Positions 2,851 to 50,373 of a stretch of 64,000 nt of DNA are shown here, one piece after another. Both the position numbers and the translations under genes were made by a program. The stretch lies in contig JAOTOM010005152.1 in assembly GCA_034440615.1 (NCBI GenBank), positions 843,501-907,500 on the forward strand, written 5' to 3'. Numbering within the stretch: the stretch's first letter is position 1; each line of letters starts with the position of its first letter. The stretch comes from Ashinkailepas kermadecensis. Taxonomy: Eukaryota > Arthropoda > Thecostraca > Neolepadidae. A model generated the notes under the pieces. That model worked only from the letters and a program-made list of their open reading frames with translations, was not told the origin of the DNA and did not search any database.

Positions 2851-3781
2851 CCCAGCCGTGAATGACCACCAGCCTCCAATGTCGATCGTCACACACTTCC
2901 TGTCGCCGTCGGCCGGCACGACAGCAGTAGAGGGTGTTTGCTCACACGCCAGCTGAAGCCAGCGGATTGGACGACACGAGACAAGCTTGCAGCGACACTG
3001 AATGCGCCGCGTGAAGGATATAACTTTGCGACAAGTTGTTTCGGAGTGTAGTGAACGAGCCGAAGCATCGGCAGTGTGCCGCAGCGGTCGATGCTGCCGA
3101 CACCACCATCTTTTCCACGTGGTAAACACCGGTCTATCCGAAGTATGTTAGCAGCTGAAGCAACACTTCGAAGACAGATCAAACGACTGAACGAAAACCT
3201 AAGTCTCATTCAACTATCACGGCTCCCCCGTCTTGGAGACCAGACATCACATTGCGCTATGCACAAGGACAATGCAATGCCAGCGGCACCAAAACGGACT
3301 TACGATACAGCAACATTTAATTCCATCAGCACAATGCACGTAATATGGCTCCCATCAGTCAACATTTATTTCAATTCATCATGTTGCAAACCAGCAAGAA
3401 AAAAACACGCCGCCCGCCACCGGAGCAGACACACAGCCATCTGTCAAGACGAGGGAGGAGAAATGACACTGGTGTGGGGATGCCGCCTGCATCTCAATAT
3501 GGTGACGTAAACAAGTTCCTCGGGCAGACTCGACGGGACCCAACAGCCTGCTGTACTGCACGAAACATAACAGTCCAAGGAAGACGTTGCAGATAAATGT
3601 TTCTGAGAAGTCGCTAAATACTGCAGATTACGATTTGAGCTGAGCATATCGTACGACCCCTGATAGCAGCTGGTATGTAACTTGCATACTGCCCAATCTT
3701 CCTGCGGCGCTCCTGTTTTGTCTATTGGAAACATGAGCATTCATTTTAAGGGGTGAAATGTGAAATAACATTTGAATGGAG

Positions 3782-3835: not shown

Positions 3836-4072
3836 TAAATACACATTGTATCCATTCATATTTTCTTAATCCTGAGGAAATCAGGCCAAAGGACACCGTT
3901 TGCTTGCGAAAACAAAACCATTCTTCGAACCATAGCAACGCATAGTTCAGGTCGTGAAACCGGCTATTAACAGGCCGCTTCAGAACCTTTTACAGCATGG
4001 GCTATGAATCACCATAATCTCGGTAAAGATTGATCGACACCAATGCGAGAACACATGGCGAACGACCCGCTG

Positions 4073-4503
4073 GAGGCTACCTCTGGAGGCTACCTCTGGC
4101 GGCTACCTCTGGCGGCTACCTCTGGCGGCTACCTTTGGCGGTTACCTCTAGTGGCTACCTCTGGTGGTTACCTCTAGTGGCTACCTCTGGCGGCTACCTC
4201 TGACGGCTACCTCTGGTGGCTACCTCTGGCGGCTACCTCTGGCGGCTACCTCTGGCAGCTACCGCTGGTGGCTACCTCTGGTGGCTACCTCTGGTGGCTA
4301 CCTCTGGCGGCTACCTCTGGCAGCTACCGCTGGCGGCTACCTCTGGTGGCTACCTCTGGTGGCTACCTCTGGTGGCTACCTCTGGCGGCTACCTCTGGCG
4401 GCTACCTCTGGCAGCTACCGCTGGCGGCTACCTCTGGTGGCTACCTCTGGCGGCTACCTCTGGCGGCTACCTCTGGCAGCTACCGCTGGCGGCTACCTCT
4501 AGT
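4073..4503. repeat. 13-bp minisatellite (TACCTCTGGCGGC)
   Basis: About 33 head-to-tail copies of a 13-bp unit, with CGG/TGG/CAG variants. Some variants recur in a fixed order (TCTGGCAGCTACCGCTGG appears four times), which suggests higher-order duplication. The 13-bp unit has no stop on the + strand, so three frames encode the same 13-residue peptide repeat; this is not evidence of coding. Confidence 0.95.
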
Positions 4504-15399: not shown

Positions 15400-15885
15400 A
15401 ACGCTCGGTCCGTCGGTGCACGGTTTCGTCCATGTCGCGCCATTCTCCTGCGTGCATGTGAGCTGCGAAGTGCTCCTCTAGCGGAGGGGAGCCCAGCCAG
15501 GCTCAGCTGTCGCTCAGGCCAGCCGTGCGGCTCGCCGGCCGGCTCGCCGGCCGTCCGTCGTCGCGGCCGACCGTCGGGCGCGTGCCACGTGACCGCGTGA
15601 CCACGTGACCGCGTGACCCGGCGCGCGGCGGCCGGCGGCCAACCGTCACGACTTTCGTCATACCTAATCAATGTGGCCGGCCGGCCGGCCGCGGACCATC
15701 GACCGTGACGGCCGTCGGCGCCGACGGTCGCGAGCGCGGCGCTGACCGACCGCCGCCCGACGCGGCCGGCGCCGCCGGCGCGTGCTTATGGTCCACGAGG
15801 ACCGGCTCACGCTGGATGCCGTACAACTGCGGTCGATGTCGAGCACGCCAACGCCCCCCGGTGGGCCTGGGGCGAGCTGGCGCGC
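15400..15885. other. CpG-rich block with E-box repeat
   Basis: High CpG content with GCCGGCC-type runs. CCACGTGACCGCGTGA is tandemly duplicated at 15585-15600 and 15601-15616, giving two CACGTG E-boxes. No gene can be supported. Confidence 0.4.
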
Positions 15886-16960
15886 CTGAGGTGGACCCGA
15901 TGGTGGCCCCGCCTGGCAGCCTGAGGCGGACCTGGTGGTGGCCTCGCCTGGCAGGCTGAGGCGGACCTGGTGGTGACCCCGCCTGGCAGCCTGAGGCGGA
16001 CCTGGTGGTGGCCTCGCCTGGCAGCCTGAGGCGGACCTGGTGGTGGCCTCGCCTGGCAGCCTGAGGCGGACCTGGTGGTGACCCCACCTGGCAGGCTGAG
16101 GCGGACCCGGTGGTGGCCCCGCTTGGCAGCATGAGGCGGACCTGGTGGTGGCCCCGCTTGGCAGCCTGAGGCGGACCTGGTGGTGACCCCGCCTGGTAGG
16201 CTGAGGCGGACCTGGTGGTGGCCCCGCCTGGCAGCCTGAGGCGAGCCTGGTGGTGACCCCGCCTGGTAGCCTGAGGCGGACCTGGTGGTGGCCCCGTTGG
16301 CAGCCTGAGGCGGACCTGGTGGTGACCCCGCCTGGTAGGCTGAGGCGGACCTGGTGGTGGCCCCGCCTGGCAGCCTGAGGCGGACCTGGTGGTGACCCCA
16401 CCTGGCAGGCTGAGGCGGACCCGGTGGTGGCCCCGCTTGGCAGCCTGAGGCGGACCTGGTGGTGGCCTCGCCTGGCAGCCTGAGGCGGACCTGGTGGTGG
16501 CCCCGCCTGGCAGGCTGAGGCGGGCCTGGTGGTGGCCCCGTCTGGCAGCCTGAGGCGGACCTGGTGGTGACCCCCCTTGGCAGCCTGAGGCGGACCTGGT
16601 GGTGGCCCCGCTTGGCAGCCTGAGGCGGACCTGGTGGTGGCCCCGCCTGGCAGCCTGAGGCGGACCTGGTGGTGACCCCGCCTGGCAGGCTGAGGCGGAC
16701 CCGGTGGTGGCCCCGCTTGGCAGCCTGAGGCGGACCTGTTGTTAGCACCCGCTTGGCAGCCTGAGGCGGACCTGGTGGTGGCCCGCCTGGCAGCCTGAGG
16801 CGGACCAGGTGGTGGTCCCGCCTGGCAGCCTGAGACAGACCCGGCGGTGGCCCCGCTTGGCAGCCTGAGGCGGACCCGGTGGTGGCCCCACTTGGCAGCC
16901 TGAGGCGGACCTGTTGTTGGCCCCACTTGGCAGCCTGAGGCGGACCTGGTGGTGCCCCCC
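15886..16960. repeat. 35-bp minisatellite, about 30 copies
   Basis: The unit is CTGAGGCGGACCTGGTGGTG followed by (G/A)CCCCGCCTGGCAG(C/G). It is the largest array in the window. A few copies carry 1-bp indels that change the frame. The minus strand is open in every frame, producing 474- and 313-codon ORFs rich in Gly/Pro/Arg. Since 35 is not a multiple of three, each frame reads the same 35-residue peptide cycle. Confidence 0.97.
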
Positions 16961-20498: not shown

Positions 20499-23400
20499 GT
20501 GAAGAGGAGAGCCCTGCGACGAGCATTACTATCATCTCAAAGGAGTGCTCCTCTGCATACCACTCCCGGCACTGGGGAAGCCCCCCGTCGTGTAGAGCGT
20601 CGCCCATCTTGCTCGTTCCACTCTCCGTCCACGGGACCGGTGGTAGTACAGGAGACTGCCGGCCAAGAAATCCGCGCCGGATGTCGTGTTCAGCAGCGGC
20701 GACATCGCATGAACCGGGTCACGGATCAACAGTGTTTCCGCGACAGGCTCCCTTCTTCATTCGTCATTCCGTCTCGCCTCACCATCGGTCAGACTCAGCA
20801 TACGCTGCGTGCTGCCACCTGCCCTGAGCCGGTGCGCACCCTGGCGATTGGACATGCTAACGTCCAGTCATTAGTGCCGAAAGTGAACTGTGTTCTTCGC
20901 ACTCTGCAAGAACACAAACTAGACCTTATGTGCTTATCCGAAACTTGGCTCCCTTCCGCCGTGTCCGACAGAATCCTAGTATTTCCAGGCTATAAACTAG
21001 TGCGTCGTGACCGTCCGGCCCAGTCGGGCCGCGGCCGTCCAGCTGCTGCAGCCCGAGGCGGTGGCGTCGCCATCCTATGTAAGGAAAAAATCAATATGAA
21101 GCTGCTGCCTATATCAAGTACCGGTTCGTCCTGCGAGACGCTGTGGGTGTCTGTGAGTGGCGGGGGACGCCGTGCTGTCACTGTGGGGGTGGTTTACCGC
21201 CAGCCATCGGAGCCCGTATCTGACGGCCTGGACGAGCTACAAGACCAGCTGCGTGCCGCCATCAGTCTCGGCAAGCCAACCTTTTGCCTGGGCGATATGA
21301 ACATCAACCTTCTTCGTTCCGACTGCCCCGGTGTTCGTCGCTACGGACAGGTGCTGCAGGATCTCGGCCTCTCTCAGCTTGTCCGGCAGCCGACCCATCT
21401 GTGGCCGACGGCAACACTGCTGGACCATATCATCACCAATGTCCCGGATATTCAGTCGGCCATTCAGCTGCCACTCGTACCGATTGCTGACCATCTGACA
21501 ATCATTGTGCGCGTTCCCTACCGCGGGCTGCGGTGTCGTCGGGCGTCCTTCACCTATCGCCCCTGGCGCAAGATTAACTGGGACGCCTTGTGCCTTCATT
21601 TCTTGTAGGCGGACTGGAGCAGTATGTACCGGGCAGCGGGGGTGGACGCGAAACTAAAGGAGTTCATGCACTTGTGGCATGTGGCGGTGAACGTGTATTG
21701 TCCCCTCAAGACCGTCCACCCCCGCCGGGCATGTTGCCCGTGGGTAGGTGACAGTCCGTACCTGCTGCAGCTCATGCGTGACCGTGACCAGGCTTTTCAG
21801 TCTTGGCGGAGCTATCGCACGGATTATTACTTGGTAGCTTATCGGAGGCTGCGAAACCGTGTGAAATGTGCGTTTGCAAAAGCCAGGCGTGACTTTGTGT
21901 GTGCGCAAATGCCGACAGACCGTGCCAATTTCTGGCGCCACATCCGGGACTTTGCGCTCCGACCGGCCGGGGGAGGGGAGGGGGCCGTGAGGGGCCTGGT
22001 AGCGACGGTGGCGGACGAATTTAATCGTCACTTTGCTTCCGTGGGCCCACGCATTGCCGCTGATCTCGTTGCTGGCAACCGCGGCGTTCCACTCATCCCT
22101 CCGCGACCACCTTGTGTGACTACCACCGGCCTCCGGCTACACCCGGTGACCCTGCCCGAACTATTCAGAGCCATATGTGAGATGTCTTCGTCGAAAGCGG
22201 TTGGCGTCGATGGCGTACCACTGAACGCTCTCCGCAACTGTTTTCCGGTTCTCGGGCCTCACCTACTTCACATCATTAACACTTCTGTCGTCTCCTTCGT
22301 GTTCCCTACCTCGTGGACAACTGTTTCGGTTGTTCCACTTCACAAATCTGGGCCTCGCGATGTCGCCAGTAACTTTCGTCCAATCTCTATTTTGCCAGTC
22401 TTATCCAAGTTATGTGAAAAAGTAGTATGTATCCAGCTGTCCTCTTATCTAGTCACTAATCACATTCTTTCCTCCTCCCAGTATGCATACAGGCCATGCC
22501 ATTCGACGGAGGACGCCCTGGTCGACGCTGTCGAGTGGATCACACGTCGTGTCGACACTGGCCACATCGCTTCGGTCATCTCAATCGACCTAAGCAAAGC
22601 ATTCGACAGCGTCGACCATGATATCCTCCTGCGGAAGCTGCAGTGGTACGGCGTCGACCCGAGGTGGTTTCACAGCTACCTTACTGACCGGCGGCAGGTG
22701 GTGAGGGGCGGCTCTTTATCCCTTCCGCTATCCCATGGTGTTCCTCAGGGATCCCTGGTTGGTCCCTTGCTGTTTAGCATCTTCATGAATGACCTGTCAG
22801 CATACCTTCCATACCGACGTCTGGTATTATATGCCGACGACACCCAGCTGCTAGACTCTGCACATCCTGATGAATTACCCGTTCTTAAATCCCGGCAGGA
22901 GAACACCATCCTTGCTATTCAGTCTTACTTCACATCCAACTCCTTGAAGATGAACCCCACTAAAACTACCCTACTGTTTGTCGGCACGACCCAATCCCTA
23001 AAAAAGCCACATCCTACCAACTGAACATTGGCAGTCACGTCCTAACCCCCTCGCCATTCGTGAAGATGCTGGGAGTCATCATTGACCGCACCCTATCCTG
23101 GGAGGAGCACATATCCCACGTTGTCAAAAAGTGCAACTCCACCTTGTTCTGTCTCCACAATATCCGTCACCATCTCACACCCGAAGCACGCAAACTCCTA
23201 ATTCAGTCTCACGTCTTTCCATACATCCTATACTGCCTCACTGTCTGGGGCGGGGCTGCCCAATGTCACCTTGGACGAGTGCAGAAGGCGATCAATTTCG
23301 GGGCTAGGATCGTCCTAGGGGCTCGTCGTCGTGATCATATCTCGCCGACAGTGGCAACGCTGGGCTGGCGCAGTGTCCGTGACCTCATCACCCACCGCGA

Positions 23401-37074: not shown

Positions 37075-39670
37075 AACCTAAAACATCTCATGGAGGGCTC
37101 AAATCATTTAGGGACACATAGTTAACTTGCCTAACTACTGCCCAACTACTGCTCTGCCTAACTCGGCAAAGCAGTAGTAATTATAATAATCAAAGCTTAA
37201 ATTAATTATGAGCAAAGGAGCCCTCTGTGCAAAATGGTTAGCTCTCCAAGGTACTATGTCACTTAGCTCATCGTCTCTGCGGAAAACCCGAGCTCCGCAA
37301 GCAGTCCCACTGTGCACTGCAGGCGCTCACAATGCACGTGCGCGAATGTTCCGATGCGATCATTGTCGGTCGTGCTAACGGCGTCCCCACGGCCAAGACC
37401 CAGCTTAGCTTGTCAGCTCTCCAAATTCAGGTTGCCTAATGAAGCTGTCCAATTTCAAGGTTGCTCAGTGGCATGCTGATTAAATTGCTTTTCCAGGACA
37501 GGGCAGATGCATGGTATTTGCGTCTGTGATATGTGTGTAGATATAGCGCTATAGGTTATTCAAAAGATTAATTACTTTCCAAATTGGTATACATCGCATG
37601 TGCATGTTGCATCATTGAATCATATGTGGAAAACGCTGCTGTCCAAGATAAACAGATGTAGTGCTGCAAACAAATGATTGAACTAGGCTGTTTCAAGGCA
37701 ATGAAGCAGCGCGGAAATACCGGCTGCGTTCCCTTGCCTGAGCTCAGAATGTTACTAAATTCCTCGCTGGTGAAACCACACGCCGACCGTTCTCGCGTCG
37801 ATACCCAATCTTGGCCTACAAGGGCCCGGGGAATTTCGGCCGCCGCCGCGTAAATAACACTGAGCAACGGTAAGACAGATCAAAAGTCGGGGAGCTGATG
37901 AACGGCCAACAATTTCACAACGGGCGCCACTGCCCAACCGCACCATCACCGGCCACCGCAAAGAATACCAACGGTGCGCACTCGTTTGTAGTCCTTCAGA
38001 GAGCTGCCCACACGCCGCACGCATCCAGCGAAATTCGAGCTTCCCCGGAGGCGGCGTCCCTCCGTCGCCCACACTCCGCACTTCCTCGCTCAAAATACGA
38101 CAAGCCACACTCTGCATACCGCCAGACCGCTGCCCCTTCCGCTTCGACAGGTTCAGCCTAACCTGTCGGTAGACTTGGAATTTGCAGCGGTTTCATGAGA
38201 CGTTAATGAGGCGCCCTCCGCGCAGGGATGGCATCTCTCTCTTAATGAGCTATAGGCTAACGGACAGCTGCCGGTTGGGCTTCTTTCCTTCTCCAGACGA
38301 GGCAAATTGTTCTCGCCAACGATGCTTGGGTGTGCTTGGGTCAGTCGCTAGACGTCTGGGTCGCTAAACTCGGAGAACATGCGACAGGAAACAGGAAACG
38401 CAATCATGCTTTCCAACTGTTGAGGAAAGTGGATGGCGGAGGAAAATTCAGGTGTCATTGATGTTGCATGTGGAAAGCGCAGGAGTACGACACTGGCAGC
38501 GTGTTCTGCTTTCCACAACTGGGGAGCAGGCTGCTTTTTAGATGAAAACAATGAGTCTCTAAGACGACATTGATGTTGTGCCACCTGGTACACTAATGCA
38601 ATGTTGATTACGATACAATGTTTATTGGTTATTATGTCATGCTACAATATAATCTCTTTATGTTATGATTATTTCTTGCTCCTGAGAGCATCGTTCCATC
38701 AGCTGCACATATGTTGTAGCGACATCTGAAGGAGCGACATCTGTTGTAGCGACATCTGCACATATGTTGTAGCGAAATATGAAGGAAAATGTATCTTGTA
38801 ATTCATAAGGCCTGTCTAGTTTTACCACACTTCGTCCGAAATAGGGTCATTTGCTACGTGAGTAAGACCATTATTTCTAGTTTACATGCTAGTTTTATTC
38901 AGCCAGCTTTTCGCATCACAGTATCTGCAGTAATGAACATGAAAATATCGCATGCTGCTTTACTGCCAATATCTGTAGAACGAAATGCGATGCCACAACA
39001 TGGGATTTCTGGTTGAGCCTGCTTGAAGGCTGTATTGAATCACGTCACATGCCACTGTACATTCATGTATGAAAATAATGCCTGCACATGGGGCGAAATG
39101 TCGCAAAGCGGACGGACTGCATCGACATGCATACCAAAACCCTTCCATCTCTGGAAAGGATGCCATCAGCTTGGCTTCGCGCGGAATCCGCTCAACAGGG
39201 AGCCTGATACGTATTAACCCCATAATTGCAGGGGTGGGGCAAGTTCCCTCCACATGTTTTCACAGGATAGCCGCTGAAAGCATAGCCCGATTGCGCTTCA
39301 ATTTGGCATACCTTCTGATGACATATAAGGGATCTTTTGGTGTTTTTTTTGGGGGTCCAGGGTCACAGGAATTCCGAACTAGGTGAGCGCAAAATCAAAT
39401 CGCCGGTTTCTACAATTGTCATTTTGGGGTGCTTTTCTATGAGCTGGCAAAAATAGGATTTCAAGGATGCCTAAAAGCTTTGCAAATCCATATGAAGGCC
39501 CTCATTAAGCGAAACATGGCGGGCTAACTTGGGTGACGTCAGGTCAGAATGTAAGGTTCGGTTAAAATCAAAACTTTTTTGTTTGTTTGTTTCCATGCTC
39601 AGAAATTCCAGCCCAAGAACCATAGCGCAAAACCTGGATTATGTGTGATAGGGTGCATTATTTTCTATAA
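37075..39670. other. Unassigned 2.6-kb sequence
   Basis: No gene recognised. Minor items are a small hairpin around TACTGCTCTGCC...GGCAAAGCAGTA near 37147-37175 and a short GTAGCGACATCTG tandem repeat near 38717-38775. Confidence 0.4.
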
Positions 39671-39678
39671 ATGTGCAG
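39671..39678. repeat. Left 8-bp target-site duplication (ATGTGCAG)
   Basis: Identical to ATGTGCAG at 44192-44199, immediately outside the element's other end. An 8-bp duplication is the hAT superfamily norm. Confidence 0.8.
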
Positions 39679-39697
39679 TAGGGTGTCCCAAAAAACC

Positions 39698-39926
39698 AAC
39701 TTTTTGGCCGTGCAAGCTGCCCAACCAAAACGGGGTGCTCTTTTACACAAAGACTAAGCTGACCAAGTTTGGTCCCCCTCCTTTAAGTTTCCCCCCTCCC
39801 CCAGCCCCTCAAAGGTCAGTGACCCCACCCCAATGTGGTAGAAAATCAATTTCATCGCACAGACCTGGGAGTGGGCTCGTTTAGAAGCTTTCAATGAGTA
39901 GAACAAACTTTTAATCAGACAAAATG
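39698..39926 (+). repeat. Left long inverted repeat of the transposon
   Basis: About 229 bp matching the reverse complement of 43959-44187 at roughly 90 percent by eye. Shared blocks include TTTTTGGCCGTGCAAGCTGC, ACACAAAGACTAAGCTGACC, CCCCTCAAAGGTCAGTGACC and AAAATCAATTTCATCGCACA. The outer 19 bp (39679-39697) are unique to this end. Confidence 0.95.
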
Positions 39927-40136
39927 CACCAAAAGCAATAGTTCATGATGAAAATGGCAAGAAACATAATCATACAACCGATTGGATTGAGCTTTTTGAA
40001 ATTGAACGATATATTGGTCCAAACCTATTGCCTCTAACCAGATTCCTTGTTTCCAGGTTAGTCCTGTGTTTAAGTGGTGATATCATCATGCATAGATTCC
40101 ATGCTCCTTAAGCACAATACCTATACTGCTTTACAA

Positions 40137-40699
40137 TTCCGGCAACTTACTCTAAGAAAAGGCCGAAAGATGACGATGATGAAGAAGAAGTAGATGCAAA
40201 GAAAAAACATGCCGGTGGGCCGCTGAAACGAGCAAGCGGGCGAGCAGAGGAATGGGAAAAGCATGTCGGACCATCATTACACCAACTCCATCTAAATCGG
40301 CTCCCCACAAAGCGGCAAATTATTTAGCGTTATCGGGCACTACGCATTCAAGAACCTCTGGATACCAAGCACAAACTGGCGGAACTGATTGCCGAGGAAG
40401 TGCACAGCATCTGGTATGCTGCCCGAGTTCCCGTAAAGCCCCTGAAGGGCTGCACCAGGAGCGTTGAGGCGGCAGTGGACCTGTGGGCTAGCCACCACAG
40501 GGGGTCGGGCAGTGGATATGCCGACATCCAGAGCCAGTTAGACGAGCTGCTGAACGTAGCACCGGGCAAAGCGGGATCTGCGCGCGGTGATCGAGATGAT
40601 CGGGAAACTTCGCTCCTGGAAGACATGAAGACGCTGATGCGAATCCACAGTAATCCTTCCTGGGAAGAAGACTACGCCTTCTTTGTGGACCAGTTTAAG
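40137..40699 (+). pseudogene. Transposase coding segment 1
   Basis: Opens with a Lys/Asp/Glu-rich stretch, then reads KHKLAELIAEEVHSIWYAAR and ends NPSWEEDYAFFVDQFK at a clean AAG/GTAATG donor. An in-frame TAG at 40325-40327 interrupts it. The true start is not determined; no convincing ATG context is seen. Confidence 0.65.
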
Positions 40700-40965
40700 G
40701 TAATGGAAGACATTTTGTCTGAAAGTGTTGAACTCGTGTATATAATGTTAGCGATATAAAATTATGAAAAGCGTCAGTTTCCCTCCTCAAACATATCAGA
40801 GCCGGTTTATCGGAATATCATCGATGTTGGCAGATGCAAATTTCTTCCAATTGAAGCATATAGTCAAGTAGACAATTGGGGGTAATTGGTGCCCCAATTG
40901 GGGGTACACCCCCATAATCCCAATGGGGCCCCATCACGCTCATAATCGAACGAATCTTTTCACAG

Positions 40966-41099
40966 GGCGAGCGGAAGCAGAAGATGGAGGGCGTTGACAT
41001 GCATCTCACCCAACGAGAGCAACGGACAGCTGAGCGCGCATCGAGACGTGATGCTGCTGAGAAGAGACGGAAATCAGATCTGTCGCTCCAAAGCCAAAG
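40966..41099 (+). pseudogene. Transposase coding segment 2
   Basis: Preceded by a pyrimidine-rich acceptor (CTTTTCACAG). It encodes a Lys/Arg/Glu-rich helical stretch including GERKQKMEGVDMHLTQREQR and ends at AAAG/GTGGGT in phase 2. It is the same type of segment that precedes the catalytic core in the family as I recall it. Confidence 0.7.
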
Positions 41100-41341
41100 G
41101 TGGGTGCATGCAATAGCATCGTATTAAATATCCCTAACCACAGGCCTCTATATACCCTGGTATATAAAGGTCTGTGCCGTAACCAAAATGGCCACAATTA
41201 CCGTAGTCTAAGAACCAAGCCGTTTTACCTATCAAACAGGTTCAATGCTGGCTGGGTAATGCATGACCTATCGCGTCATTAAATCCTCAAACCCGTTCAA
41301 ACTTACAGGAGCGTCAGCATCAACCTTGTGTGTGTCCGCAG

Positions 41342-42114
41342 CATTGATTCGAGCAGAATCGTAACAGAGCACGAAGGGGAGGCTCAAGCAACTGCCAGTA
41401 TGACCCAGCATGCAGAGGACGACGTAGCGGAGGGCGACGAAGCTTACGAACCACCAAAACGTCAGACACAGCAATGGGCATCATCCTCTAGGAAGGAGGT
41501 GATTCATCTTGCCATCCCTAAACGTGCTCTGATGAAGGCAACCACAGATGTGTCAACGCGCTGTAAGCTGAGTCACCGCAAGGTGACTGCCCTTACAGCC
41601 ACGCTTGTGAAGGCTGGTGGAGGCTCGTTAAGTGATGTCACCCTGAGTAAATCGTCCTCACATCGTCACCGCATGGTTCAAATCAACGAGACACATAACG
41701 AGATCGTCACGAAGTTTAAGAGCAGCATGCCAAAGCACATTGTTCTTCACTGGGATGGCAAGCTCATTAAATACACACACCAGAAAACCACTGACGAACG
41801 GCTTGCTGTGGTAGCCAGCTTCCCAGGTGATGATCGCGCACCCCAATTCCTGGACGCACCTCAGCTGCCTGATGGCTCCGGAAGCAGCATGGCGACCGCA
41901 CTGAAAGCAACCCTGGCCGATTGGGGCATCCCTGCAACCGCCATCGTAGGTCTCAGCTGGGACACGACCTCATCAAACACCGGTGCCGTAAAGGGGTCAT
42001 CAGCTTTGCTGGAGAAGGAACTGGGCTCCGCACGACTGTGGCTCGCCTGTCGGCACCACATCTCCGAGCTCCACATCAAGCACGTGGGCCACGAGCTCCG
42101 TGGTGCCACGACGG
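41342..42114 (+). pseudogene. Transposase coding segment 3: RNase H-like core
   Basis: Carries two of the three inferred catalytic residues: HIVLHWDGKLIKY and GLSWDTTSSNTGAVKGSSAL, followed by LWLACRHHISELHIKHVGHE. It has no internal stop over about 257 codons. Two in-phase acceptors, 33 bp apart (ending at 41308 and 41341), are possible. The donor is ACGG/GTGAGT in phase 1. Confidence 0.85.
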
Positions 42115-42331
42115 GTGAGTGTCATGCTTGACGTGCAGCCATATTCTCTCCGAGCAGAACCCAAACCGTTTCCGAATCAAGCGTCTTGTGACTTGTGCAA
42201 CATTATGTTTCTTTCAAAACCATACCTTGCCGAGCTGGATTCATGCATTCCGGTCTCCAGGAGGCAATAATTCCTTGTCTCTCCTCAAGGAATTTATCCA
42301 CATGCCCCTCCATGTCCTTTTCTTTTCGCAG

Positions 42332-42558
42332 GTCCTACAGACCCAGCATTTCGGTGCTTCCGGGAGGCCTTCCAACAATTGTCCTCCGTGCCTCCTCCGA
42401 GCTGCTTCTGCCTCTGGGAGTGGCCAGAGGACGCCCAACGAGTGGCCAGAGCGCTCCAAGTAAAGGAATGGGCGGAGCAAGCGCTTCTCAAGGGGTCATT
42501 CGGTCGCGACGATTATCGCGAGCTCTGCGAACTGATCACCATCTACCTTGGAGGAGAG
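42332..42558 (+). pseudogene. Transposase coding segment 4
   Basis: Preceded by CTTTTCTTTTCGCAG. It encodes GPTDPAFRCFREAFQQL and later SFGRDDYRELCELITIYLGG, and ends at AGAG/GTAACT in phase 0. Phase 1 in and phase 0 out both match the neighbouring segments. Confidence 0.8.
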
Positions 42559-42693
42559 GTAACTTATGCTCTTACAAGAGCGATGTTTACAATTTCCCAT
42601 GAGTAATGTGTGACGACTCTTGGCAAACATTCATGACAATATGACAATATGCAAATTTAGTTTGCATGGTTTGACGCAATTTCTCCTCCACAG

Positions 42694-43511
42694 GTTGTGA
42701 GACCTCGGAAGAAAGGCCCACCAGTCCGAGGCTTCACCATGCGGCGCCCAGGTGCACTTCACCAGGCTCGATTCATGCGCCATGGCCTCTACATCCTGAA
42801 AATGGCACTCCTCCTTGAAGTCGACGAGGCAACAGGGTACATGGCGTCCGAGGAGCGCGACCTGGTGAAGAGGATGGCCGAGTATATCGCGCTCTACCAC
42901 GCCCCCTTCTTCCTACAGGCAAGTCTGCCAGCAGCAGCCCCTCGGCTCGACTTGCTGCTATGGAAAGAGATGCAGGCGTACGCGCTTCATGATCCTGCTG
43001 TGGCTGAGGCGACTCGGCAGAGTCTAACGAGGCATCTGTGGTACCTGACACAGGAGAACGTCATGCTCGCCCTCTTCGACAGTGAAGTCCCGGTAGAGGA
43101 GAAGCTCGCAATGGTGTAAGCTCTCCTGGACCACACACGACCGATGGAGCATCCCCCGGGAAGCCGACCTTCCCGAAGACATCCCTCCTGGACGCGTCAC
43201 ATGATCTAGCACCATTCGTGGGGCCAAGATCTTGGCTGATGTTCAGCCTGCTGGACAACAGTGGGGCTTGGTTGAAAAACCATACCAGCCAGTGGGCAGA
43301 TGACGATGAGTATGTTCGAATGGAGAATGAAATGCAGCAGTTGTCAGTCGTGAATGACGCAGCCGAACGTGGTATTAAGGACATTACCGAGTACGCAGAC
43401 ATGTCTAGAGACGGCAGAGTTAGAAGTCGTATGATCGCAGTGGCGAGTTCACACCGGGCTGCGGTCCCGTCAATGCGGAAAAGTGAGCTAGCTGTGCATC
43501 GTGCATGCTGA
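42694..43511 (+). pseudogene. Transposase coding segment 5, C-terminal, broken
   Basis: Preceded by TTTCTCCTCCACAG. It reads through RRPGALHQARFMRHGLYILK and LTRHLWYLTQENVMLALFD to a TAA at 43117-43119. Family-like sequence continues in the same frame for about 14 codons, then shifts by one base near 43160. In the new frame FVGPRSWLMFSLLD and LSVVNDAAERGIKDITEYA follow, to a TGA at 43509-43511. The final residues RAAVPSMRK also match the family ending I remember. Confidence 0.75.
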
Positions 43512-43937
43512 CGGCATGAGACTACGACTGAGTAGACAGTGCAACGTGGCTGGCACAGATGAAGCGCAGATGAGAAACGGATTGTTTTGCCATAGTATTG
43601 TACATTATCGCGTTAAATGTGCATCTACTTCACTGTCATTGTGCACTCTCATTCTCACAGTTCGACCTGTATCTAACATAGTGATGTTGATTAGCATACT
43701 GATGTTGATGTGCCACTGTGAGTTGTCAATAGGTCAAATATATGTCAATAGGTATATGTCAATAGGTCAAAATAATGGACTGAACGGAAAATAGTATGTT
43801 ACTGTCTCGAAACAACCCTTCTATCATTTCTAAATACATTTCTTCACAGACCAAGTCACGGCGATCACTGCAATGCCTTACTCTGATAACAGCTCGTTAT
43901 TTCCGGTTGCGTTGGATCTGAAATGGCCGCATAGAAC

Positions 43938-43943
43938 AATAAA
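43938..43943 (+). promoter_or_regulatory. Candidate polyadenylation signal (AATAAA)
   Basis: Canonical AATAAA about 430 bp after the transposase stop and just before the right inverted repeat. Confidence 0.5.
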
Positions 43944-43958
43944 TATTGTGATTCGAAC

Positions 43959-44187
43959 ATTTTGTCTGAATTAAAGTTTGTTCTGCTCAATGAAAGCTTT
44001 TAAATAAGCCCACTCCCAGATCTGTGCGATGAAATTGATTTTCCACCCCATTGGGGTGGGGTCACTGACCTTTGAGGGGCTGGGGGGGGGACCAAAACTT
44101 AAAGGAGGGGGACCAAACTTGGTCAGCTTAGTCTTTGTGTAAAAGAGCACCCCGTTTTGGTTGGGCAGCTTGCACGGCCAAAAAGTT
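43959..44187 (-). repeat. Right long inverted repeat of the transposon
   Basis: Reverse complement partner of 39698-39926. Relative to the left end, the outermost 17-18 bp are missing between TAG and AACTTTTTGG. A small indel surrounds the C-run (GGGGGGGGACC). Confidence 0.95.
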
Positions 44188-44191
44188 TCTA

Positions 44192-44199
44192 ATGTGCAG
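44192..44199. repeat. Right 8-bp target-site duplication (ATGTGCAG)
   Basis: Exact match to 39671-39678; both copies are preceded by A or AA, so the duplication could be read as 8 or 9 bp. Confidence 0.8.
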
Positions 44200-46428
44200 A
44201 GGTTCAGATCGTTGTCAGGCGTGGTCAAGGAGGGATGACCCAAAATCTCCGCAAAAACGGTGACTAGTCGAAATGCCATTGGTCGTCCCTTTAAGAGGTC
44301 ACGTTATTTCATCACATGAGTTGACATGTCTTGTCATGCATTTCAGTGTTTGCATCATTCCAAGGCCATCCTAAGTCAATGACTCAGGTGCCCCTGGCTG
44401 GCCTAAATTGATCCTCTGTTTGCTAGTACTCTACTCCCAGGGTAGTCTTAGACACTGGACTCGAAATCAGCACGGCTCTACCACCCAGTGCCATACTTAT
44501 AGGAATCAGACATAGGTCGTCCTAGGTCAATGACCCAGGTCACCTTGTGTGATCCATGTTGAACATTTGCAACCAGTTGCTTTCCAGCGTAGCTTTCGAT
44601 GCTGAGGTCGCATTCACGTATGCCTTTTACTCCAGAAGTGCATACAACATAGAACTAGATGAGGCGTGAAAGTGGGTGACATTGCCCGGTCAAATGTTAC
44701 TTCAAATGTTACAAATGTTACATGATCTTTCATCAAGTCGTTGGGTATGTGGTATGTGCTGCAGCGCCTCATTTCAAATTCACTTGTTTTACCGCTTGTT
44801 TTATTGCTTCAACGCTCGCAAGCCTCCCACATGTGACCTTGACCTTCCAGTTGCGTTTGAATAGCACCATTGGTGTTCGCTGGACGCACAGCTAGCCATT
44901 TGTGCCACGCTTTGCCCGAAAATGCCACTTGATTAGCGGCAATTGTGAAAACCGGCCAAATGGACCCGTCGGTCACCGACACGGCGACCTTGACCTCCTT
45001 GACCCGACCTGGCGGGCCAACGGTCAAAGGTAGACATCTATTAACACCACTGAGCAGATGAAAGGTAGCATTACGCACCGGTGAAAAGCCGGTTTATCTA
45101 AGCATTGTGGAACAGCCGAAGTTCGAGGGTAATAATCCTCCCTTTGGAAGAAGGGGGAGGGGTCGACCGCTGAACGACAGTTCGCGGTGTACTGGTATCA
45201 GCGTGGACATCAATATTAGCATAATGCAGTATTATTTATGTAACATTCAATATGGTTGCACCGTTCGCAACGCCCTGACACAAACCAGCGTCTCCCTTTC
45301 CTGCAAATGTATGAGTAGAGCTTTAAGTAGGCGAGATTACTCTCTCGTATTTTGTCTTCGGTTGGACGGATAAGTTGGCAAATTGCCAATCAAGTTGCGG
45401 ACGCGATGGCGGAACATTAGCGGGATGCTGTGCTGCCTGACATAGTTGTGACCTTTGTCTGAAGTCCTCCGATCAAGTAATGGGTTCCAGGTGCATGCAG
45501 CACACGCTGCTTCACATGATCAAGGATCCTCCTTAAAGCGCTCCGCCGAATGCTTCAATTACATTGATTTCGTAAAACGATGGAAGTTTCAGGCTACATA
45601 ATGGGATCAATGTTAATTGTTCTAAGCATCACCTCCTGCGGAACCTCGCCGATGACGAACATCCCTCGAAGATCCGGGCGCAATCTACGTCAATGCTGGT
45701 ACCGTTCCAATTCGATGCAATAGCTTCAGTGAATCTCTCTAGAAAGTTTGACAAAACCTTGGTTACGAAACTTACTCGATTGAAGCTTGACAAGTCGGTG
45801 AAGGTTTTTTTCTCAGACCCCACATCATAGTCGGACTATCTCCTGCAGCAAGTTAAGTTAAGTTAAGATCGGTAAGATGTTCTCTGCCTACTTTTCCTGC
45901 TCGCAACTCGAGAATCCGGTTTGAAACCAGATATAAAACCTGTGTGCGATATTTCATCGAATCTTAAATCCACGAAACAACTAAGCCAATGTCTTTTATG
46001 CGTGCAGCCTACAGTGAATCAAAATAACTGGGCCAAATGGGCGCCACAAACTTCCTCGTTCGGTTTCCCCAGCACAGAGCAACAGGTTTCGGGATGTGTG
46101 GATCAACATTAGCACTAGTTTGAAAACGACAATCGGCTGTCAATACCCAAGCACACTGTTCTCTGCAGAAGTTGGAAAACTTGGCCACGTCCCCTTGAAG
46201 CAATGCCACACCATCCTACTTCAGTGATAGGCGCGTGCGCCCAACACAACAGTTACCGGCGTACACAGAGACGGCTGGGATCGACCTTTCCATTACTCGG
46301 CCGCCGCCATTGCTCAACTGATGTCACCGAGCCGCAGCCGAGATGCGGTGGCTTCAGACGAGCTAAAGAAAGACAAAAAACGGAGCCCTTTGGGGCTGAC
46401 GTCGGCTACGCGGGCCCTCCCGGCGGCA
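44200..46428. other. Unassigned 2.2-kb sequence
   Basis: No gene recognised. TCCTA(A/G)GTCAATGAC(T/C)CAGGT occurs twice, 150 bp apart (44370 and 44520). A short AAGTTAAGTTAAGTTAAG tract lies at 45850-45868. Confidence 0.4.
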
Positions 46429-47356: not shown

Positions 47357-48409
47357 CTAAAGTAAGTTGGTTTTTCGGATAAAAATGAAAAGGAGATTGA
47401 TGAGAAAAGGGTGTGTATCTCCTAATAGTGTGGGCAAAGAAAAGGGGGTGTTGTGTGTACGGCAGTAGTTGATAAGTGTTTTTTGATGTTCATGGTATTT
47501 TTGACAGTGTAGGAGAATATGTGAAACGGTAAGGTGAGTGTTGCATGATGGGCATGAAGGTCGTGGTGAAGCAGTGTAAATATATCGATGGGTGGGAAAA
47601 GTGTGACCTATGCGGAGCCGTGATAACTTTTTCTTCTTGTCTGTTTTTTTATATGATGTGGTCCAGTTTTCGATGACAGGTTTGATGAGACGTAATTGTG
47701 TGTAGTTTGTGGTTTCAGTCAATTGGTGGTTCCAAAAATGTCGAATGTTCTGTCGTATTGTTGATTTGATGTCGTCAAAATGTGGTGGGATTTCTGTGAT
47801 GTGTGGTAATTGTAATGATTGTTTTGCGAAATGATCTGCTTCCTCGTTTCCTGGGATGCCACAGTGACTGGGCACCCACAGGAAACGGACCTTCATGCCC
47901 ATCAGATGAAGTGTTTCAAGTGTGTCGTAAATGGAAATATGGCAATGGTGCGAAAAGGAAAGTGAAGAAAGAGATTGAAGAACAGATTTTGAGTCGGAAC
48001 AAATGACGACATGGCGCATGGGGTGACAAATTGAACGGTTGCGGACATAGCGAAGGGCAGTGAGAATGGCGTGTAATTCGGCGATGAAAATGGATGTCCC
48101 GTTTGACAAGCGATGTTGTTTTGTGTGTGTACCTGCAACAATGGTGTTTCCTGCGTAATTTTCGTCTTTAGATTCGTCGGTGAAAACAAAAGGATCATGG
48201 CGATAACGAGAGCGGAACTGGTGGAATTTTTGTTTGACGTATTCTGGACAAAGCTGTGATTTTGGAGTGGTGGTGAGATTACAAAAAAAAATTCGTTCGG
48301 CCATCTGGCACGGTGGTGTAGTTCGTGGAGGAAGAGCAGTAATATGTAGAATATTGTATTGAAGTTGTGTAGAAAATGTTTTGATGCGTGAAGCTATAGT
48401 AAGGCCGGT
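47357..48409 (-). pseudogene. LINE RNase H domain and C-terminus
   Basis: RNase H residues are in order: Asp in FTDESK, Glu in AELHAIL, Asp in CSDSKS, and Asp in WVPSHCGIPGNEEADHFAK. After it comes CPSCNTHLTVSHILLHC, the zinc-binding-like C-terminal motif common in Jockey/I elements. The segment is in the same frame as the upstream RT and is separated from it only by a TGA (48410-48412). RNase H removes the RNA strand after target-primed reverse transcription. Confidence 0.9.
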
Positions 48410-50373
48410 TCATTTTTCGGCAGGACCTAAATAGTCGTGGTGTAGATTTGGGAGAATTTGTAAAGATGTCTGTGTAGGGTGGTGTTCTCTAAATTGAATT
48501 TTTGCGGCATACCTGAGTGTTTGTTCAATTCTTTGGAGAGCTAATAGTGGAATTCCTGATTCGATTTGTAAAGAAGTAATGGGAGAGGTGGTCATTGCAC
48601 CGAGTGCTATGCGAATAAATTTATTTTGTAAGGTGTCCAAAAGTTTGAAAGCGGAGGTACTGCCACTTGCGTAAACTACGGAGCCATATTCTATGATGGG
48701 AAGAACCAAGGATTTGTATAATTGTAATAGCGTGTGACGATCGGAGCCGAATGATGAAGACGTAATACAGCGAAATAAATTGAGTCTGTGAAAACATTTG
48801 GTCTGGATGTGTTTGACGTGCTGGTGCATGGAAAGCTTGCGATCGAAAATAACACCAAGAAATTTGAACGAATTTACAAAATGTATGTCAGTGTTTCCGA
48901 GGTGAAGTGGTATTTCTGGATTTGGGCACGGAGTTGATTTGCTGAATATCATTGTGGCAGATTTTGGAGCTGAAAATGTGAAACCGTATTTGATGGACCA
49001 TTGGTGTATCCGGTCAAGTGCCTTTTGGAGTCTAAATAAGCAATGTGTTTCATTTTTATCTGTGCACCAAATTGCGCTGTCATCTGCAAAAAGGGAGTAT
49101 GATATCTGAGGTGGCATGTCGGTGAAAATATCGTTAATGATGATGTTGAATAAGACTGGTGATAAACACCTTCCCTGTGGTAATCTGTTTTTCATGAAAT
49201 GTAACTCGGAAATCGCTGACCTGCACCGGAGATGAAAATGACGGGAACCAGACAAGAATCCTATCAAATAATGAGCTAAATTTCCTTTGACGCCGAAGTG
49301 AAGAAGTTTGGAAATTAATGCCGGTTTGTATACCATATCATACGCTTTGCTAATGTCTAAAAATACGGCGATGGTGTGTTCATGCTTTTTTATAACCAAG
49401 GAAGATGTCAGTTTTAATCGAATGAGATGATCTATTGTACTGTGGCCATGACGAAAGCCGCATTGAATTGGAGATAAAAGATAATTTGTTTCTAAGTACC
49501 AGGTCAGTCTTTTTACAATCATACGTTCGAAAAGTTTTCCTAGACAACTGGTGAGAGCGATGGGTCGAAAATTGTTGGGGTTGCTGTGGTTTTTGCCGGG
49601 TTTTGGTATAGGAATGATGAGGGCTTCCTTCCAGGATTCAGGGAACGTATGGCCAGACCATAATGCATTAAATGTTTGTAAGATGCAATGTTTTGTGTCG
49701 TTGGATAAATGGCGGAGGAAATTGCAGTATCCAGTTCTGAAACTTGAAAAGGGATATTGTTTGTTTCAGTGTTGTCCGAATCGAATTGTGCCAAATCGGT
49801 GTGAAATTTGTGTTGTGCATTTTGTAAAAATTCCGGTCTGTAGTTGTTGTGAGCCATGGTGTCCGCTATTGTATTTGTTATTGTTTGTGGGTCTGTAATT
49901 GTGGTGTTTGGAATTTTGAGGGCCGGGAGTGATTTAAATAGAGTGCGTCCTGATAATCGGCGGATTAACTGCCAGATTTTGCTTAAAAGTGTTTAAGAGG
50001 TGAGTTGCTGTAAATATAATGACCATGAACGGCGACGAGCTTCGCGAATGATGCGGCGTGTCTTCGCACGTCCATAATTACGGTTGACTAAATTTTGTTG
50101 GTCAGGATGGCGTAAGTATTTTCTAAATGCTCTCTTTCTTGTGGTTTTTGCTCGGGAAACTTCTATCGACCACCAGGGGACTGGTGTTCTTTTTATGAAA
50201 GGTTTTTTTTAGTGGAGTAGCGGTGGAAGCTGCTTCGAAAAGTGTTTTGGTAACTCGGTTGATGTTTTCGACGGGAGAAATGTTGGGGTTGTATTGAATA
50301 TGTGAAAGTTCCTGAAAAGTTGTCCAATCGGCCTTCGAAATTTTCCAGCGGGGATAAAACTGGGTGTGGTATC
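48410..50373 (-). pseudogene. LINE reverse transcriptase
   Basis: Open from 49522 to 48413, with further similarity upstream in shifted frames. Motifs are NNFRPIALTSCLGKLFERM, CGFRHGHSTIDHLIRL, FLDISKAYDMVYKPALISKL, LPQGRCLSPVLFNIIINDIF (Leu-Pro where Val-Pro is usual) and the catalytic SLFADDSAIW. The upstream linker (50373-49523) contains RWKISKADWTTF and at least one frameshift near 49700. The domain ends in a single TGA before RNase H. Encodes the polymerase of the element. Confidence 0.9.
50369..50373. repeat. Left 5-bp target duplication of the Gypsy insertion (GTATC)
   Basis: GTATC here and at 52077-52081. Removing the insertion plus one copy re-joins the host LINE reading frame. Confidence 0.85.

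Follow-up and report, generated by a model that had tools for sequence, protein, structure and literature searches.

A decayed, intron-bearing hAT transposon, likely of the hATm family, and its predicted Hermes-like transposase

The window analyzed here, a stretch of 64,000 nucleotides, harbors a 4513-bp element (39679-44191) which begins with TAGGGTGTCCC, finishes with AAAGTTTCTA and is enclosed by an exact 8-bp duplication, ATGTGCAG (Table 1). Inverted repeats extend inward for approximately 250 bp from either end and include two pairs of arms, 39698-39802/44083-44187 (105 bp, 95% complementary) and 39774-39943/43941-44110 (170 bp, 84%); the 5' repeat region (element coordinates 1-248) was found again in other copies at 92-98%. 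The long inverted repeats and the duplication had both been described in an initial annotation of this DNA, the boundaries of which were exact. Of the termini, which it had described as TAG-type, the 5' end, TAGGG, is of the Y-A-R-N-G type; the right end, read inward, is TAGAAAC (TAGAA), a shortened form given that 14 of the 15 other loci with two ends read TAGGGTG there, the exception (L049) being TAGAGTG. Y-A-R-N-G termini together with 8-bp duplications are the criteria by which hAT elements are recognized, and the assignment to this type is upheld by the 8-bp duplications and the TAGGG ends. The window contains other repeats as well, including non-LTR retrotransposon-like frames on the minus strand (47363-49765), in which a reverse transcriptase (PF00078, E 2.4e-37) precedes an RNase H (PF00075, E 1.1e-11), a second open frame for a reverse transcriptase on the plus strand (21609-23018; PF00078, E 5.9e-31) and, over its whole length (1-64000), many tandem arrays (52 rows with a score of at least 120), for instance at 15884-16959 (35-bp unit) and 4070-4500 (13-bp unit).

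Between the repeats, the sequence predicts a gene of five coding segments which are in phase across four GT-AG introns of 266, 242, 217 and 135 bp. This model, already put forward in the initial annotation, is supported by aligned relatives that continue in a single frame through the splice points, such as FVDQFK joined at the splice point to GERKQKMEGVD, which aligns with FYLDQRGERKASMGGVD of the relative P0003. The copy in the window is dead and unable to make a full transposase, a circumstance that had been overlooked: ATT stands in place of the start codon at 40136-40138 (Met in the copy on contig C2862), two in-frame stops interrupt the coding sequence (TAG 40325-40327, TAA 43117-43119) and a run of C near 43153-43158 shifts the frame. 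Exon 5 is covered by seven derivative copies; the TAA is absent from all of them, and five have the shorter C run in common with the window. The C2862 copy, 98% identical to the window over element positions 1-2367 (40 mismatches, 5 gap columns), has a stop of its own within exon 3 and terminates in that exon; both long copies observed are thus unable to make the protein.

Table 1. Features of the element and of its flanks, in window coordinates.
Feature	Position	Strand	Remarks
Target-site duplication, left copy	39671..39678	.	ATGTGCAG; site single in paralogous empty sites
5' terminal inverted repeat	39679..39943	+	Starts TAGGGTGTCCC; inverted arms
Coding segment 1	40136..40699	+	Start inferred (ATT here, Met in C2862 copy); in-frame TAG at 40325
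Intron 1	40700..40965	+	GT...AG, 266 bp; relatives continuous at splice point
Coding segment 2	40966..41099	+	
Intron 2	41100..41341	+	GT...AG, 242 bp
Coding segment 3	41342..42114	+	Holds first two predicted catalytic acids and C-x-x-H motif
HWDGK	41748..41762	+	First predicted catalytic Asp; D373 of relative P0003, 78/78 relatives
DTTSSNTG	41961..41984	+	Second predicted catalytic Asp; D441 of P0003, 78/78
ACRHHI	42045..42062	+	C-x-x-H motif; C470 and H473 of P0003, 78/78 each
Intron 3	42115..42331	+	GT...AG, 217 bp
Coding segment 4	42332..42558	+	
Intron 4	42559..42693	+	GT...AG, 135 bp
Coding segment 5	42694..43511	+	Ends at TGA; broken by TAA at 43117 and frame change near 43153-43158
VVNDAAERG	43347..43373	+	Likely catalytic Glu; E794 of P0003, 75/75 ungapped relatives
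3' kilobase found as inverted dimer in short non-autonomous copies	43186..44191	.	Commonest arm limit at element positions 3508-3510
3' terminal inverted repeat	43941..44191	-	Tip shortened
Target-site duplication, right copy	44192..44199	.	ATGTGCAG

The mobility of the element was addressed through its copies, the number of which is a lower bound (40 of 95 and 40 of 57 candidates were scored in two genome searches). Duplications were counted at 16 loci with two ends, namely the window and 15 of 20 loci hand-picked, non-randomly, from the match lists; the remaining five were L039, L042 and L054, with one end in the fetched stretch, and L040 (contig C4178) and L041 (contig C2791), two mutually similar compound arrays of nested family copies. 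An exact 8-bp duplication was found at 14 of the 16 loci, in 13 distinct sequences because L047 and L048 represent a single insertion; L045 is bounded by an imperfect 9-bp duplication, and the flanks of L050 yielded none. At the 13 distinct sites G occupies position 3 without exception, C is found at position 6 in 12, T at position 2 and A at position 7 in 11 each, and the full pattern nTGnnCAn occurs in nine. The insertion target in the window is an older interspersed repeat (39529-39678 and 44192-44349): a genome search with the two flanks joined gave 41 matches, consisting of the flanks themselves and 39 rows of this repeat at 66-93% identity. Ten of these rows were fetched, and all of them are continuous across the site, with no element in it: nine have an ungapped single 8-bp site (in L083 with identical letters), and one, L079, has two extra bases inside the site. 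The element is thus a real mobile element. The surveys of genome copies and of empty sites had been proposed in the initial annotation, and none of the observations it had named as speaking against a transposon was made: the ends are consistent, the 8-bp duplications vary, sites are found empty and more than one copy exists.

A peculiar class of derivatives was encountered among the short copies. All 16 short loci fetched (L043-L058, a non-random choice from the match lists) contain two oppositely oriented copies of the 3' end of the element; the arms measure between about 0.1 and 1.25 kb, and their commonest limit corresponds to window positions 43186-43188. In L050 (289-2327) the palindrome is near-perfect, with two 1-kb arms, a 3-base spacer and unmatched flanks. 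As the short palindromes have spread with duplications of their own, two right ends can presumably serve as a substrate.

A search of protein databases, a step that had also been recommended, retrieved 74 relatives (E <= 0.001); when an alignment was used as the query 53 proteins were obtained (E <= 1e-5), and an intronless relative from the same genome gave 582 (E <= 1e-10). The relatives come from, among other named sources, crab, lobster, ant, brine shrimp, sea louse, limpet and several fishes; one labelled as a cyanobacterial MAG may be a contaminant. These proteins are annotated as 'uncharacterized' or 'Cc8K15.2-like', and a literature search for 'Cc8K15' or '8K15' of Cotesia congregata returned nothing. 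Phage records contained no relative, and 16 pattern matches in viral contigs yielded none that was confirmed. Pfam gave no significant match for the window protein or, among the families listed, for its relatives, nor was any Pfam domain present on a relative among the matches listed (74, 53 and 120 of 582). Sub-cut-off Pfam/NCBIfam matches of the last coding segment to DUF2300 (E 0.0053) and antiphage_GapS6a (E 0.091) were taken as chance, as were adenovirus fiber and other non-transposase chains (E 0.013 or worse) in PDB sequence searches for which exon 3 or the profile served as the query.

More distant relatives are numerous in the same genome, where at least 147 matches to the exon-3 protein were obtained (of 1562 candidates, 147 were scored): the window, the C2862 copy (96%) and at least 145 others at 28-41% identity, many of them in long open frames. 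Two of four distant relatives fetched have TAGGGTGG ends and 8-bp duplications. L060 ends in TAGGGTGGTCC/TAGGGTGGTTC and is flanked on both sides by ATGCGCTT, and L061 has TAGGGTGGCAC ends and the duplication ATATATAT; L062 is 99.8% identical to L061, and its fetched stretch stops short of the left flank. Inverted repeats of about 195 bp were observed in L059, in which no TAGGGT-ended pair with a duplication was found.

The comparison with the Hermes transposase that the initial annotation had called for was made with a predicted fold, modelled on a relative with 47% identity rather than on the window protein itself. The prediction is that of Hermes, a hAT transposase of the house fly (PDB 4d1q, 6dww, 2bw3), and the structural alignment extends to Hermes residue 609; a sequence-profile search of PDB did not find Hermes. 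Fold matches to retroviral integrases, ISCth4, RAG and Argonaute were confined to the common RNase H core or scored lower, and these candidates were set aside. The initial annotation held that the protein is not a classic hAT transposase; sequence models do not recognize it, but the fold predicted is that of Hermes. On this model (P0003 numbering) the conserved D373 lies in strand 1, D441 after strand 4, C470 and H473 after strand 5, and E794 where the first helix following the insertion begins. The topology of the fold suggests E794 as the likely catalytic Glu, which together with D373 and D441 would form the metal-binding triad.

In the proposed mechanism, the transposase would bind the long inverted repeats and excise the element, as in hAT transposition, where a hairpin forms on the flanking DNA. 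The excised element would then be joined to a staggered 8-bp target, preferably nTGnnCAn, and the short palindromic derivatives would be moved in trans by the proteins of other copies.

A fourth hAT family, hATm, was named by Zhang et al. (2018; PMC6004678), and for hATm the link to a mobile element class was as such already in print; the initial claims that the family is unnamed, and that this element would be the first to provide the link, are not supported. It is concluded with considerable confidence that the window element is a decayed DNA transposon, likely a member of hATm, with inverted repeats of approximately 250 bp and a target duplication of 8 bp; its transposase, for which the RNase H-like DDE fold of Hermes is predicted, would act by cut-and-paste. 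Membership is argued from ends and anatomy, hATm having been compared by its published description in place of a reference protein; PF05699 is reported for hATm-6 (PMC6004678) but was unseen among the Pfam families listed for the present relatives, and the element is accordingly filed as likely hATm. It adds a new, well-documented member to a kind of element already known.

The initial proposal of a separate unnamed hAT-like lineage, which would move in the same way and share only the TAGGGTG ends with hATm, is improbable. The likeness to hATm being drawn from a description and not from direct protein comparison speaks for such a lineage, as does the absence of the PF05699 of hATm-6 from the Pfam families listed for 78 relatives, but ends, duplication length and long inverted repeats all match hATm as far as the published text describes it. 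Moreover, Caligus rogercresseyi, which encodes one of the relatives (P0172), is reported to have 10,502 hAT-hATm copies (PMC7878743), and the L061 duplication ATATATAT resembles TATATATA, given for hATm-3 of Hydra (PMC8721813), in which hAT-hATm is also listed (PMC12220107). That the locus is an immobile host gene domesticated from a transposase could be argued from the introns and from the exon-3 protein being present at high identity, among the matches listed, at one other locus only; this reading is rejected as next to impossible, being refuted by the empty paralogous sites and the broken coding sequence, with terminal repeats and target duplication bounding the whole element. Membership in a different superfamily that also makes 8-bp duplications, such as P, was considered and discarded as equally implausible.

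New in the present analysis are the prediction of a Hermes fold and of the residues likely to be catalytic, the bias in target choice, the empty sites and the palindromes formed from right ends. Many animal proteins for which Pfam has no model are tied to a concrete mobile element, and annotators could mask them as transposon genes; the family is easily mistaken for host genes for want of sequence models, which a Pfam model built with the motifs of Table 1 would remedy.

Among known systems, Hermes resembles the present protein in the predicted fold over 355-371 aligned residues, with an RNase H core and a large helical insertion, and in the order of its motifs, which in Hermes is D, D, C-x-x-H, R-W, E. 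The two differ in sequence (approximately 8-10% identity in the structural alignment) and in that the present family has no recognizable Pfam hAT domain; the N-terminal half of its protein lies outside the range compared. To the classic, PF05699-positive hATs of the same genome the profile matches weakly around the two Asp and C-x-x-H (P 87.9); no match to them was obtained for the C-terminal part (P 0.4) or, in one of their sub-groups, for the whole profile (P 0.6). The classic hATs match PF05699, all 150 of the matches listed being over the cut-off, in contrast to the present family, where it is absent among the Pfam families listed for 41 relatives (25 of 33) and for 37 relatives (25 of 27). 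It may be proposed tentatively, at somewhat short of even likelihood, that hATm is a deep hAT branch which kept the Hermes core and replaced the recognizable C-terminal dimerization sequence, and that in this genome the right end alone suffices for movement, spreading inverted 3'-end dimers rather than left-right deletions.

Another of the closest known systems is hATm (class hAT-hATm in Repbase/RepeatMasker); Zhang et al. (PMC6004678) state that Repbase holds more than 74 relatives and describe members from Rhodnius, Cotesia and a bracovirus. From the family so described the present element differs by its four introns, inactivating lesions and shortened right end, by the absence of PF05699 from the Pfam families listed for its relatives and by short copies that are inverted 3'-end dimers. 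It shares with hATm the TAGGGTG/CACCCTA termini (in the window at the 5' end, and at the right end in 14 of the 15 other two-ended loci), the duplications of 8 or 9 bp (here 8 bp, with the imperfect 9 bp of L045), long terminal inverted repeats, although the approximately 250 bp found here are below the 417 and 575 bp of two published members, and the occurrence in invertebrate hosts together with short non-autonomous relatives.
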